The notes under the pieces are model-generated. The model did no database searches and was not told where the DNA came from. It worked only from the letters and a program-made list of their open reading frames with translations. Position numbers and translations under genes: made by a program. A DNA stretch of 64,000 nucleotides from an uncultured Pelagibacteraceae bacterium. Its GTDB lineage: Bacteria; Pseudomonadota; Alphaproteobacteria; Pelagibacterales; Pelagibacteraceae. Numbering within the stretch: position 1 is the first letter of the stretch; each line of letters begins with the position of its first letter. The stretch lies in the NCBI GenBank assembly GCA_902620525.1, contig CACNIK010000001.1, forward strand, positions 229,501-293,500, written 5' to 3'. Below, piece after piece: positions 36,410-40,282 of the stretch.

Positions 36410-37311
36410 TTTTTTTTTCTACCAAAGTCCGGGGTTTCAACATCTTGACCGGCTTTAACAATTTCTTTTCTAACATTCTTAGTTGAAGCAAATATTTTTA
36501 AGAGTTTATCACCATTTTTCTCTGTTATTGCTTTTTTAAAAGTATCAATATTTTTTGAAAATTCATCTAAAATTTTTATAATATTTTCACTGTTATCAAT
36601 AAAAATATCTTTCCACATCAAAGGGTCTGAAGATGCAATACGAGTAAAGTCTCTTAAACCTCCTGCACTATATTTGATAATTTCATTTTTAAATTTTTCA
36701 TCAGTATTAATTGCGGTTATTACAATATTGTATGCTACCGCGTGAGGTAAATGACTAGTAAGGGCAAGTATATAGTCATGCTCAGCAATACTCATTAATT
36801 TTACCTTGCTTCCTAAAAATTCCCAGAATTTTTTTAATTTTTCAACTTTATCTTTGTCTGAGTTTTTAGTGTCACAAATTATTGTCCATCTATTTTTAAA
36901 CAAATCTTTAAATCCGGCAGAGGGACCGCTTTCTTCGGTTCCTGCTATAGGATGGGATGCTATCCAGAAAATATTTGTAAAATTAAAATTTTCAAATATT
37001 TTATTTGCCTCTTTTTTTACAGATCCAGTGTCTGTAATTATAGCGCCCTTTTTAAAATTATCTTTTGCAGATAATAGAACTTCTTTGTAAGAGCTTAGAG
37101 GAATAGCAAGAATTATTAGATCTGAGTCTTTTACCGCAGATTGAATATCTTTTGAGATGTTATTACATAAATTTTCTTTTTTAATAGTTTCAACTACATC
37201 TTTTGATTTATCAAAAACTGTAATTGTACTACTAATTTCATTATTATTTATGTTTCTAAGAATTGACGAACCTATTAAACCACAACCAATAATAGTTATT
37301 TTTTCAAACAT
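36406..37311 (-). CDS. tyrA: Prephenate/arogenate dehydrogenase
   Basis: NAD(P)-dependent dehydrogenase of tyrosine synthesis. The dinucleotide fold is at the N-terminus (IIGCGLIGSSI, 7-17). ASHPIAGTEESGPSAG contains the conserved substrate-site histidine and Glu. LTSHLPHAVAYN and GGLRDFTRIASSDP are family blocks. 301 residues without an ACT domain match the alphaproteobacterial form, which often accepts both prephenate and arogenate. It overlaps hisC as TAATG and probably follows it in one operon. Confidence 0.93.
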   Translation of the reverse strand: MFEKITIIGCGLIGSSILRNINNNEISSTITVFDKSKDVVETIKKENLCNNISKDIQSAVKDSDLIILAIPLSSYKEVLLSAKDNFKKGAIITDTGSVKKEANKIFENFNFTNIFWIASHPIAGTEESGPSAGFKDLFKNRWTIICDTKNSDKDKVEKLKKFWEFLGSKVKLMSIAEHDYILALTSHLPHAVAYNIVITAINTDEKFKNEIIKYSAGGLRDFTRIASSDPLMWKDIFIDNSENIIKILDEFSKNIDTFKKAITEKNGDKLLKIFASTKNVRKEIVKAGQDVETPDFGRKKN

Positions 37312-38387
37312 TAAATTATCTTCCTTAAAGTCTTTATAAATTGTTTATTTTCGAAGTTATTTCCAACTGTTATTCTTAAAGAATTTTTTATCTTATACAC
37401 ATCCATTTTTCTGACTAGAATTCCACTTCTAGCTAATTTTAAAAATATTTTTTTTGAATTACCTTTAATCCTATTAAAGTTGACTAGTAAAAAATTTCCG
37501 TAACTAAAATTTGTTTCTATACCAAGATTTTTAAAATTATTATAAAAAATTTTAACCCATTTATTAACGTGTTTTATTTCCTTGTTTAACCACTTAACAT
37601 CTTTAATCGACTCCACAGCTGCAAATAGACCTGCTCTATTAATATTAAAAGGTGGTTTAACTTGATTTAATGCATTTATCAAATTTTTGGGGCCATATCC
37701 CCATCCAACTCTTAGTCCAGCAAGACCATAAATTTTTGAAAATGTTCTTGTTACAATAACATTTTTAGAATTAGAGAATAACTTCATACCTGGTAAATAA
37801 TGTTTATCTTTTACATATTCAAAATAAGCATCATCAACAACTAACAATATATCACTTCTTAACTTTTTTCTCAATTTGAGCAGTTCCTTTTTACCAATAA
37901 TTGTTCCAGTGGGGTTATTAGGATTTGCTAAAAAAACAATCTTTGTTTTTTTTGTTACTTTAGAAAGAATATTATTTATAGAAATTTTAAAATTTTTTTC
38001 TTTCGCATATTTAATCTTTGCTCCATAAATTTTGCTGTAAATCCTATAAATTATAAAACTAAACTCAGGAACAATTACCTCATCATTTTTATCAATAAAG
38101 GATTTGCATATTAGTTCGAATATTTGGTCAGAGCCAGACCCTAGAATAATTCTTCTAGGATCGAGCTTAAATTTTTTAGCCAATACTTTTCTAAGAAAAA
38201 TACCTTCTGAGTCTGGATACCTTTTTAAATTTTTTGATATTTTGTTGAATTCTTTTATTGCTCTAGGACTAGGACCCAATGCAGACTCATTAGCTGACAT
38301 TTTAATATTTGCCGCTTTCTGCTTGAATAGACTTAATCCAGCAACATATTTTTCTGCATTAATTTTTTTCGGTTTCGGTAAATTCAT
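37311..38387 (-). CDS. hisC: Histidinol-phosphate / aromatic aminotransferase
   Basis: Class II aminotransferase of 358 residues. ANPNNPTG binds substrate, DDAYFEY holds the cofactor ring, and the Schiff-base lysine is in TRTFSKIYGLAGLRVG. SANESALGPSP at the N-terminus is the HisC/Cobc-type start. Because it is paired with tyrA, it may also act on aromatic 2-oxoacids, as proteobacterial HisC-like enzymes do in tyrosine and phenylalanine synthesis. It diverges from metX. Confidence 0.92.
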   Translation of the reverse strand: MNLPKPKKINAEKYVAGLSLFKQKAANIKMSANESALGPSPRAIKEFNKISKNLKRYPDSEGIFLRKVLAKKFKLDPRRIILGSGSDQIFELICKSFIDKNDEVIVPEFSFIIYRIYSKIYGAKIKYAKEKNFKISINNILSKVTKKTKIVFLANPNNPTGTIIGKKELLKLRKKLRSDILLVVDDAYFEYVKDKHYLPGMKLFSNSKNVIVTRTFSKIYGLAGLRVGWGYGPKNLINALNQVKPPFNINRAGLFAAVESIKDVKWLNKEIKHVNKWVKIFYNNFKNLGIETNFSYGNFLLVNFNRIKGNSKKIFLKLARSGILVRKMDVYKIKNSLRITVGNNFENKQFIKTLRKII

Positions 38388-38480
38388 TTTATTTTAGTTA
38401 ATATATAAAAAGCTATAGTAATGCTAGTTTCATTACATATGAATTTGACAAGTTTACGACTATTTAGTATTAATTTCAGC

Positions 38481-38535
38481 AAGGCGCCGATTTAACCAAA
38501 TTGCAGGCGCTTTATAAATATTGCTAAACAGGAGA
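38481..38535 (+). promoter_or_regulatory. SAM-II riboswitch aptamer upstream of metX
   Basis: The sequence matches the SAM-II (metA) motif. A P1 stem pairs 38484-38488 with 38506-38510, extended by A-T and G-T pairs at 38481-38483 with 38511-38513. The conserved loop GATTTAACC is at 38489-38497, ATTGCA at 38500-38505 and the 3' pseudoknot strand GCTAAA at 38523-38528, followed by AGGAG (38530-38534). The GCTAAAC strand (38523-38529) is also an exact complement of GTTTAGC (38543-38549) inside the downstream terminator, giving a likely antiterminator. SAM binding would then favour termination. Confidence 0.9.
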
Positions 38536-38536
38536 T

Positions 38537-38563
38537 AGCCCAGTTTAGCTGGGCTTTTTTTTT
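38537..38563 (+). terminator. Riboswitch-controlled intrinsic terminator before metX
   Basis: AGCCCAG (38537-38543) pairs with CTGGGCT (38549-38555) around a TTTAG loop, followed by nine T residues (38555-38563). It lies between the SAM-II aptamer and the ATG of metX at 38566, so it fits conditional termination rather than a gene end. Confidence 0.88.
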
Positions 38564-38565
38564 GG

Positions 38566-39705
38566 ATGAACAGAAAACTTGAAAATATAAAGAAGATTAA
38601 AGTAGAAAAGCCACTTAAATTAGATTGTGGAAAGACAATTAATAATTTTCCTCTAGCATATGAAACCTACGGAAAATTGAACAAAAATAAAGATAATGCA
38701 ATTTTAGTTTTCCATGCCCTTACCGGTGATCAATTTGTTTCTGGTACCAATCCTATTACAAACAAAGAAGGATGGTGGGTTACTGCTGTCGGTCCAGGAA
38801 AAGCTCTGGACACAAATAAATATTTTGTAATTTGTGCAAATGTTATAGGTGGTTGTATGGGTTCTTTAGGCCCTAAAGATATTAATCCGGAAACTAAACA
38901 GCCGTATGGGTTAGAATTTCCAGTAATTACAATTAGAGATATGGTCAGAGCCCAAGAGTCATTACTTGATCATCTTGGAATAAAAAAACTATTATGTGCA
39001 ACTGGAGGATCTATGGGTGGTATGCAACTTTTACAGTTCTGCTCGACCTTTCCTAATAGATGTTTTTCAGCAATTCCAATTGCTTGTAGCTCGAGTCATA
39101 GCGCACAAAATATTGCTCTAAATGAGTTAGCTCGCCAGGCCATCATGGCCGATCCTGTATGGGACAAGGGTAAATATTTTCTTAAAGATGTTCAGCCAAA
39201 GAATGGATTAGCTGTTGCAAGAATGGTTGGGCACATAAGTTATTTATCAGAAAAAGGTATGCAAGAAAAGTTTGGAAGAAAATTACAGGAAAAAGCAGAT
39301 TACGAATTTAGCTTTAATGCCGACTTTCAAGTTGAAAGTTATTTAAGACACCAAGGTTTCGCATTTGTCGAGAGATTTGATGCTAACTCTGTTTTATACA
39401 TTACACGAGCGATGGACTATTTTGATCTTTCTAAACAATTTAAGGGTGGTTTAGTAGAGGCTTTTAAAGGACAAAAAACTAAATTTTTGATAATTTCTTT
39501 CTCTTCCGATTGGCTTTACACAACTAAGGAAAATAAAGATATAGTTATAGCTTTAAATGCCTCGGGAGCAGATGTTTCTTACTCAGAAATTTTTACAGAC
39601 AAAGGGCATGACTCTTTCTTACTACAAGTACCAGATTTTTTAAAAACATTAAAAAGTTTTGTAGACTCAATGTATGAGAAATTTAAAAATGAAAAAAGAA
39701 TTTAA
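38566..39705 (+). CDS. metX: Homoserine O-acetyltransferase MetX
   Basis: Alpha/beta-hydrolase-fold acyltransferase that starts methionine synthesis by acylating homoserine. The nucleophile is Ser149 in [18 protein letters not shown] near the N-terminus and the catalytic His in DKGHDSFLL are intact, and the late Asp is in [14 protein letters not shown]. 379 residues is standard. ATG 38566 follows the terminator T-run after only two G residues, with no adjacent ribosome site. The riboswitch AGGAG lies about 31 bases upstream. metW overlaps its 3' end. Confidence 0.95.
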
Positions 39706-40282
39706 AGTAATTGCTGATTTATTACCGAATAATACAAGAGTATTAGATGTGGGTTGTGGAGATGGTTCTTTGATGGATTTACTTTACAAGAAAAAGAATA
39801 TTGAAGTTCGAGGTTTAGAACTTGATCAAATTAATGTTCAACAATGTATCCATAAAGGTTTACCTGTTATACAAGGTAATGCGGAAACAGAACTTCATCA
39901 ATTTCCTAACCAATCATTTGACTATGTAGTTTTGAGTCAAACTCTCCAAGCTTTTTACAATCCAGAAAAAGTATTAAGAGAACTTTTGAGAATTGGTAAG
40001 TCAGTGATTATTTCGATACCAAATTTTGGATACTGGAAAGTAAGGACAAAACTTTTATTTTTTGGTAAAATGCCAGTAACTAAAACTTTACCCAATACTT
40101 GGTATAACACGCCAAATTTACATATGTGTACAATTAAAGATCTTTTTAGTTTTTGTGATGAAAAAAAAATAAAAATTCAAAAAGTAATTGGAGTAAACGA
40201 AGATAAAACATCTTTAATTAAAAGAAATAATTTAGAAATTAAGAATCTTTTTTCAAAACTAGGAATATTTTTAATTGGATAA
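39689..40282 (+). CDS. metW: Methionine biosynthesis protein MetW
   Basis: Methyltransferase-fold protein paired with MetX in many proteobacteria. The SAM-type glycine loop is VLDVGCGDG (residues 18-26). [17 protein letters not shown] and [10 protein letters not shown] are MetW hallmarks. I chose ATG 39689 ([15 protein letters not shown]), which matches the usual MetW N-terminus; ATG 39674 would add only five residues. Overlap with metX is 17 bases. MetW is thought to act with MetX, but its reaction is not settled. Confidence 0.92.

Follow-up and report, generated by a model that had tools for sequence, protein, structure and literature searches.

In an uncultured SAR11 bacterium, metX and the following metW are very probably switched off by transcription attenuation under a SAM-II riboswitch, as judged from sequence and folding. 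The leader of metX combines the aptamer with an intrinsic terminator and an antiterminator. These two structures exclude each other, have similar computed energies in the window, are conserved among SAR11 metX leaders, and occur in parallel, with changed letters, in front of other genes. The window is the whole stretch of 64,000 nucleotides of DNA that was analysed, and all positions refer to it.

The metX Leader of the Window

A permissive local Rfam search matched the family SAM_alpha (RF00521) to positions 38474-38548 (28.7 bits, E 1.1e-4). As this score is under the gathering score of 36, the standard Rfam scan reported no SAM-II in the window. SAM_alpha was matched at E ≤ 0.001 in 183 of 297 SAR11-family genomes and over the gathering score in none of the 297 (stricter filters), so that the cut-off of 36 looks too strict for this family, and routine annotation will tend to miss its SAM-II elements. 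The P1 stem and the conserved core (GATTTA, TTGC, GCTAAA) are present in the window element, and methionine/SAM biosynthesis genes, metX and then metW, lie downstream. By sequence we identify the element as a SAM-II (SAM_alpha) riboswitch before metX; the Rfam match and the profile assignment of the gene bear out the initial annotation in this respect. Seven other Rfam families in the permissive scan, among them the SAM-II long loop family RF01726 (16.4 bits versus a cut-off of 44), were all far under their cut-offs and were rejected. An RNA related to the window aptamer (40 of 52 letters) was studied as a SAM binder (PMC10907184), and the window copy would be expected to bind SAM.

All features of the leader are on the plus strand. 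A promoter-like block was read from the letters at 38445-38473, with TTGACA at 38445-38450, a spacing of 17 nt and TATTAA at 38468-38473. By eye, TTGACA recurs in many metX leaders. Since a strict sigma-70 promoter scan of the window leader reported none, the block is a weak candidate for the promoter of the metX leader; transcription would be expected to start at about 38480. The P1 hairpin (38483-38511, arms GGCGCC at 38483-38488 and GGCGCT at 38506-38511) is seen in the Rfam SAM_alpha alignment, in the fold and in our alignment A1 (see below). ATTGCA at 38500-38505 falls on conserved positions of SAM_alpha, with ATTGC conserved to at least 90% in A1, and presumably forms the 5′ strand of the P2 pseudoknot, a pairing scheme taken from the known SAM-II fold. 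GCTAAAC at 38523-38529, supported by sequence, Rfam, fold and A1, is the shared switch element, being both the 3′ strand of P2 and the 5′ strand of the antiterminator. Directly behind it lies the Shine-Dalgarno-like AGGAG (38530-38534), 31 nt upstream of the ATG, whose GG at 38531-38532 can pair with CC at 38540-38541.

The intrinsic terminator hairpin spans 38537-38555 and was detected by sequence, folding and terminator scan. Its stem is formed by AGCCCAG and CTGGGCT (38537-38543/38549-38555), its loop is TTTAG (38544-38548), and it leads into a T9 run (38555-38563) that ends 2 nt before the start codon, with GG at 38564-38565 and ATG at 38566. The distance from the end of the hairpin to the ATG is exactly 10 nt. 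GTTTAGC at 38543-38549, comprising the last base of the 5′ arm, the loop and the first base of the 3′ arm, is the 3′ strand of the antiterminator and the exact complement of the aptamer strand GCTAAAC. Direct reading of the sequence agrees with the initial annotation on this complementarity and on the coordinates of the aptamer strand, terminator, T-run, Shine-Dalgarno-like site and ATG. The terminator scanner found this hairpin as the single terminator-like site in 38388-38600, where shuffled sequences averaged 0.1.

The gene downstream, metX (38566-39705), belongs to the homoserine O-acetyltransferase family (NCBIfam NF001209, 504 bits, cut-off 331). It is overlapped by metW (39674-40282; PF07021 MetW, 244.6 bits), which is probably co-transcribed with it. 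According to the ORF list, a divergent ORF lies upstream of the leader on the minus strand (37311-38387). An upstream in-frame ATG that is present in leader L009 and others was rejected as start of metX, because the window and other leaders lack it.

Competition of Terminator and Antiterminator

In the SAM-II fold the GCUAAA strand is part of the P2 pseudoknot when SAM is bound. The choice would be made at this strand as RNA polymerase leaves the aptamer. With SAM bound, GCUAAA would be held in P2, the terminator at 38537-38555 would form unopposed, and transcription would halt in the U9 run just upstream of the start codon. Without SAM, GCUAAAC would pair with GUUUAGC as soon as the latter is synthesised, with the GG/CC pairs lengthening the helix; this antiterminator would cover the 5′ arm and the loop of the terminator and allow the polymerase to read into metX. 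The OFF direction of control and the kinetics are what we infer from this scheme.

The sequence and the computed energies place an intrinsic terminator between the aptamer and metX, with an aptamer strand competing against it by base pairing. In the window the antiterminator improved from −6.7 to −9.9 kcal/mol once GG 38531-38532/CC 38540-38541 was added, compared with −11.7 to −12.9 kcal/mol for the terminator; in another metX leader, L039, the values were −11.6 and −10.8 to −12.0 kcal/mol, all of these energies leaving out the pseudoknot and SAM. When the platform alone was folded, the antiterminator was the best structure from the synthesis of UAGC to the completion of the terminator's 3′ arm, and in a longer stretch of L039 it remained the best beyond this point. 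Folding and the shared strand thus agree with the earlier claim that the two structures exclude each other, and the energy balance is what would be expected for a switch that is decided during transcription.

Among all 1024 five-base loops, TTTAG was the best for the competing pre-terminator fold in the window background (p 0.0024, with loops weighted by assumed base frequencies of 0.36 for A/T and 0.14 for C/G). TTTAG also ranked best of 1024 in the backgrounds of L039, L095 and L123, which were picked from leaders having this loop, so that this first test comprised TTTAG backgrounds only. In nine further metX backgrounds (native loop other than TTTAG in seven), between 3 and 43 of the 1024 loops beat the native one (3 in each of three g2 leaders, 20 in L081, 26 in L122, 43 in L143, 10 in L166, 24 in L119 and 21 in L120). 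Across the 12 metX backgrounds other than the window, the native loop ranked from 1st to 44th. It was beaten by other loops in both tested g6 leaders with TTTAG, and of six tested backgrounds from g3, g6 and g8, five had better loops for the antiterminator than the native one. The complementarity of 7 nt in the window is more than chance.

Conservation in SAR11 metX Leaders

A metX gene was found in 254 of 294 genomes. We compared 141 metX leaders from ten genera, labelled by g-numbers: that of the window, 120 leaders that are part of the metX places listed (e.g., 9 of the listed g2 rows), and a further 20 from 27 rows, after removal of 5 duplicates and of L179 and L180, whose matches were partial or remote. 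The aptamer and a terminator with T8-T10 were present in 102/102 leaders of five genera (77 in g1, 9 in g2, 11 in g3, 4 in g6, 1 in g8), and so was TAGC in the loop. The full complement TTTAGC, giving a 6-bp core, occurs in 84 of these 102 (g1 74, g3 7, g6 3); the other 18, including 9/9 of g2, have one mismatch in the core. The complementarity proposed in the initial annotation is thus largely conserved in the SAR11 metX leaders.

The terminator stem, GCCC(A/G)G/CTGGGC, is nearly invariant in metX leaders. From the hairpin to the first ATG we counted 9-12 nt in g1 (77/77) and g2 (9/9), 15-18 nt in g3 and 22-23 nt in g6 and g8. Hairpin and U-run persist at distances anywhere between 9 and 23 nt, so that the conserved thing is the terminator and not where it stands with respect to the start codon. 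The sequence linking aptamer and terminator is variable and usually retains GG(G), the partner of CC(C) in the terminator arm when the antiterminator forms. The antiterminator of g3, g6 and g8 falls short of the terminator by as much as about 6 kcal/mol (−5.9 versus −11.7 in L143). The GCUAAA strand is constant within the metX leaders; the core pairs therefore cannot covary among them, and evidence from covariation rests on the paralogues.

SAM-II Leaders of Other Genes

Twenty paralogous SAM-II leaders were read in front of metY, bhmT-like (homocysteine-methyltransferase) and metF genes. Five of the genes were named by profiles: that of L002 as homocysteine-methyltransferase (bhmT-like; PF02574, 125 bits), those of L020 and L215 as metY (TIGR01326, 565-567 bits versus 495), and those of L207 and L211 as metF fragments (PF02219). 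Most of the others were named by eye, and L205 is ambiguous. The terminator stem of these leaders differs from that of metX; it is of the ACCACC/GGTGGT type and is followed by T9. The same rule of pairing applies: the aptamer strand GCTAAAGCG faces CGCTTTAGC in the loop region of the terminator, giving nine pairs. This helix is fully paired in 18/20 leaders, with Watson-Crick pairs throughout in 10 and one or two G-U pairs in 8; the remaining two (L197, L207) have one mismatch. At the seventh pair of the antiterminator the window has C-G, the paralogues G-C. Among all 4096 six-base loops, the native loop ranked 1st for metY of the window's own genome, 1st for a bhmT-like leader and 2nd for a metF leader.

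Alignment A1 contains 42 sequences, metX leaders and paralogues, from a list of 88. In this list L100 stands twice with different starts, two g4 entries have no terminator, and 21 loci are left out (L099, L117, L121, L126 and 17 leaders without terminator). At the seventh pair A1 has CG in 11, GC in 11, UG in 4 and a mismatch in 16 sequences. In the ten-pair helix 81.2% of the cells are paired, compared with 76.8% (sd 0.6) after shuffling and 20.6-51.2% when the helix is slid. The covariation score was 0.071 versus 0.037 for shuffled alignments (0/500 as high) and 0.051 for a slide of +1, and cells changed on both sides numbered 12 versus 3.8 (0/500). Two of the five measures on A1 were at shuffle level, namely double-change pairs (2; 361/500) and further pair types (5; 494/500). 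In 30 of the 31 metX rows, pair 8 is not formed.

The pattern GCTAAAGCG-N5-35-CGCTTTAG, which covers eight of the nine antiterminator pairs, was found in 131 of 294 genomes and is absent from 163; the reversed control gave 0, and the aptamer was checked at only some of the sites. In the window's own genome it occurs once, in front of metY (L215; G000:C2, about 199631-199663, minus strand). L215 has, in this order, a SAM-II-like aptamer, a terminator of the ACCACC/GGTGGT type, a SAM-V aptamer (69.4 bits) and metY. An Rfam search at E 1 did not report the SAM-II half of this tandem. Thus, the antiterminator rule derived from the window located a second SAM-II switch in the same genome and finds a copy that the Rfam model misses.

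Other SAM_alpha-like leaders were seen at L194-L196, L198-L202 and L030, where GCTAAAGGAG lies just upstream of the ATG of a small ORF. For L194, L195 and L030 the SAM_alpha scores are 27.8-30.1 bits and the ORFs have 55-61 aa; the small ORF of L194 has no Pfam or NCBIfam match. In g5, a SAM-II-like aptamer precedes metW-like ORFs at L208, L209 and L210 (L208 by profile); behind the aptamer come AGGT and a hairpin-like stretch containing runs of A and T.

Other Platforms before metX

The terminator finder reported none in the metX leaders of g7 (1), g9 (8) and g12 (6). These leaders (L124, L133, L142, L144, L148, L160-L165, L167, L168, L175, L176) have a Shine-Dalgarno sequence (GAGG/AAGG), a hairpin of variable sequence and the AUG, in this order. 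The linear distance from the Shine-Dalgarno sequence to the AUG is 22-32 nt, and looping out the hairpin reduces it to 5-8 nt in 12 of the 13 distinct leaders; L176, the remaining one, contains an N in its stem and did not fold. The stems vary in sequence with the pairing kept; in the 11 distinct leaders compared (all but L161 and L176), a single position shows up to five pair types. The layout of this type resembles a ribosome site that is bridged and under riboswitch control.

In the 15 metX leaders of g4 (L127, L130, L131, L134-L136, L138-L140, L145-L147, L149-L151) no hairpin or terminator was found, and a U-run follows directly after the aptamer. They contain AATTCA (15/15; CAATTCA in 14/15), complementary to TGAATTG in the aptamer loop (15/15); the same loop letters occur in two g3 leaders and one g6 leader. 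By eye, AUGAAU at the start codon is a further possible partner of AATTCA in g4. In the nine g5 leaders, a GCTAAA filter detected no SAM-II up to 260 nt from metX. In a midpoint-rooted MetX tree of 29 rows, which has none of the four g2 and five g5 rows, the bridged type is on one side of a branch (100/100), and so is g4 (100/99), which lies inside the terminator type. This position requires two changes, so that probably either g4 lost the terminator or it arose on two occasions.

Discussion

The transcriptional reading of the metX leader is supported in silico. The initial annotation took transcriptional control as the more natural reading, and the terminator in 102/102 leaders together with the antiterminator rule in the paralogues argues for it; the underlying observation was right, and its interpretation is well supported by what sequence and folding can give. 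Its remark that SAM-II is chiefly known for masking the ribosome site holds for one crystallised example. Very unlikely, in our view, is a switch acting on translation only, in which the pseudoknot conceals AGGAG once SAM is bound and the hairpin has no part in the control. A loose pattern for AGG/GGG-like motifs after GCTAAA is matched in 99 of the 102 terminator leaders, and the crystallised metX SAM-II was proposed to be such an occlusion switch (PMC10907184). The motif is missing, however, in 3 of the 102 (1/9 g2, 2/4 g6), while all have the terminator, and its GG(G) has an alternative possible role in pairing with CC(C) of the antiterminator. In the window, moreover, the terminator lies between AGGAG and an ATG 31 nt away; a Shine-Dalgarno sequence in the pseudoknot at working distance, as in the 2QWY model, is not present, since 12 nt are reached only if the hairpin is looped out. 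A terminator that works independently of SAM, with the complementarity an accident of an inherited hairpin, appears very improbable. Since the hairpin hardly varies in sequence among metX leaders, a single inherited accident could explain many of them, and the loop results for g3, g6 and g8 given above fit this view as well. Against it stand the first rank of TTTAG among 1024 loops in the window and the terminators with different stems (metY, bhmT-like, metF), which follow the same rule with changed letters. Also, the upstream ORF is divergent, so there is no evident same-strand transcript that would need termination at the leader.

Attenuation may be accompanied by a translational share at the window. 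In an extension of the attenuation model the hairpin would terminate transcription and, after readthrough, loop out 19 nt, bringing AGGAG to an effective distance of 12 nt, with SAM controlling both steps; this we regard as possible but rather unlikely. By the rule of a 2007 survey, terminators lying within 10 nt of a start codon are assigned an effect on translation as well, and the leader in the window would be classed as dual because its hairpin ends 10 nt before the ATG. The short distances in all g1 and g2 leaders (9-12 nt) are consistent with this extension, as are the g7, g9 and g12 leaders with their effective spacing of 5-8 nt and no terminator U-run. Gene 25 of T4 functions at an effective 11 nt (PMC3014915), and the Shine-Dalgarno sequence within the SAM-II of S. 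meliloti metA serves an AUG that lies 74 nt further downstream, on the other side of a terminator (PMC9373788). However, g3, g6 and g8 have the same terminator at 15-23 nt, so that bridging is not a constant feature, and in the full-length fold of the window AGGAG pairs with the U-run. Going further, the slot of the hairpin might be an evolutionary hinge, used as a terminator under SAM control in g1, g2, g3, g6 and g8, as a bridge from a SAM-controlled Shine-Dalgarno sequence to the AUG in g7, g9 and g12, and as both in the genus of the window, where it would terminate at high SAM and bridge after readthrough. We offer this tentatively, with the chances against it; if true, structural biologists would have in their model SAM-II RNA one half of a transcription switch.

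Returning to attenuation as the preferred reading, its relevance is both physiological and methodological. In P. ubique, steps leading to methionine are under a set of riboswitches (PMC5069961), and as of 2018 recent experimental and computational work on SAM-II centred on the metX aptamer (PMC6061858). If the metX leader is an attenuator, the closing rates of the pseudoknot should be compared with the time the polymerase needs for about 25 more bases, and not only with ribosome binding. Our analysis suggests a correction of the standard SAM-II model from a translation to a transcription switch, which can be tested.

A laboratory SAM-II RNA was printed in 2021 as a 52-mer ending in AGCUAAAAAGGG (PMC8494917). 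It shares 40 of its 52 letters with the window, ungapped, and is identical (52/52) to the metX leaders L039 and L048 of two SAR11 genomes, AG-914-J05 and AG-918-M15. We take this 52-mer to be the crystallised metX SAM-II RNA of PDB 2QWY. In both genomes the letters after it are GATGCCCAGTTTAGCTGGGCTTTTTTTTTGG-ATG, with the same terminator and antiterminator partner; the RNA was studied as an aptamer ending in GGG, whereas the genomic leaders continue into these elements. The metX SAM-II was read as translational (PMC6061858, PMC10907184, PMC5352136), and another paper states that it 'probably regulates translation' (PMC9373788). In the available text of the open-licence literature searched, we found no statement on a terminator in the leader of this model RNA.

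The metX SAM-II of P. ubique (SAR11_0217; Meyer 2009, PMC2704228; Smith 2016, PMC5069961) has the same aptamer class and gene as the window. Smith 2016 lists the metX and bhmT SAM-II among the switches affecting transcription (PMC5069961); in the portions of both papers available, no metX terminator or antiterminator is described. In the bhmT SAM-II/SAM-V tandem of P. ubique (PMC9481103, PMC11508383), an intrinsic terminator follows SAM-II as in the window, and its layout is matched before metY in the window's genome; unlike this tandem, the window element is single and has a different terminator stem. Sequence downstream of the bhmT SAM-II blocks its response to SAM, antisense oligonucleotides against the linker or its U82-U90 run restore SAM binding, and the authors predicted a hairpin before the U-run and proposed masking mediated by the linker (PMC11508383). 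The words 'terminator' and 'antiterminator' have no occurrence in the main text of this paper. The antiterminator rule offers a simple account of this 'linker inactivation': by analogy with related bhmT-like leaders, an antiterminator of nine bases would produce such a block.

Genes 25 and 38 of phage T4 have split ribosome sites, in which a structure between Shine-Dalgarno sequence and AUG restores the distance (PMC3014915), as proposed here for g7, g9 and g12; unlike the SAR11 leaders, they are phage genes and have no riboswitch. In S. meliloti metA a Shine-Dalgarno sequence in the riboswitch acts across a terminator, as in the dual reading of the window, but a SAM-II-driven antiterminator could not be predicted by the authors (PMC9373788). 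For S. meliloti metZ, SAM was predicted to favour the terminator (PMC9373788), as we propose for the window. A SAM-II riboswitch with a terminator is a kind of switch already known; of value here are the antiterminator rule, the correction suggested for the standard SAM-II model and the natural swaps of platform around one aptamer.
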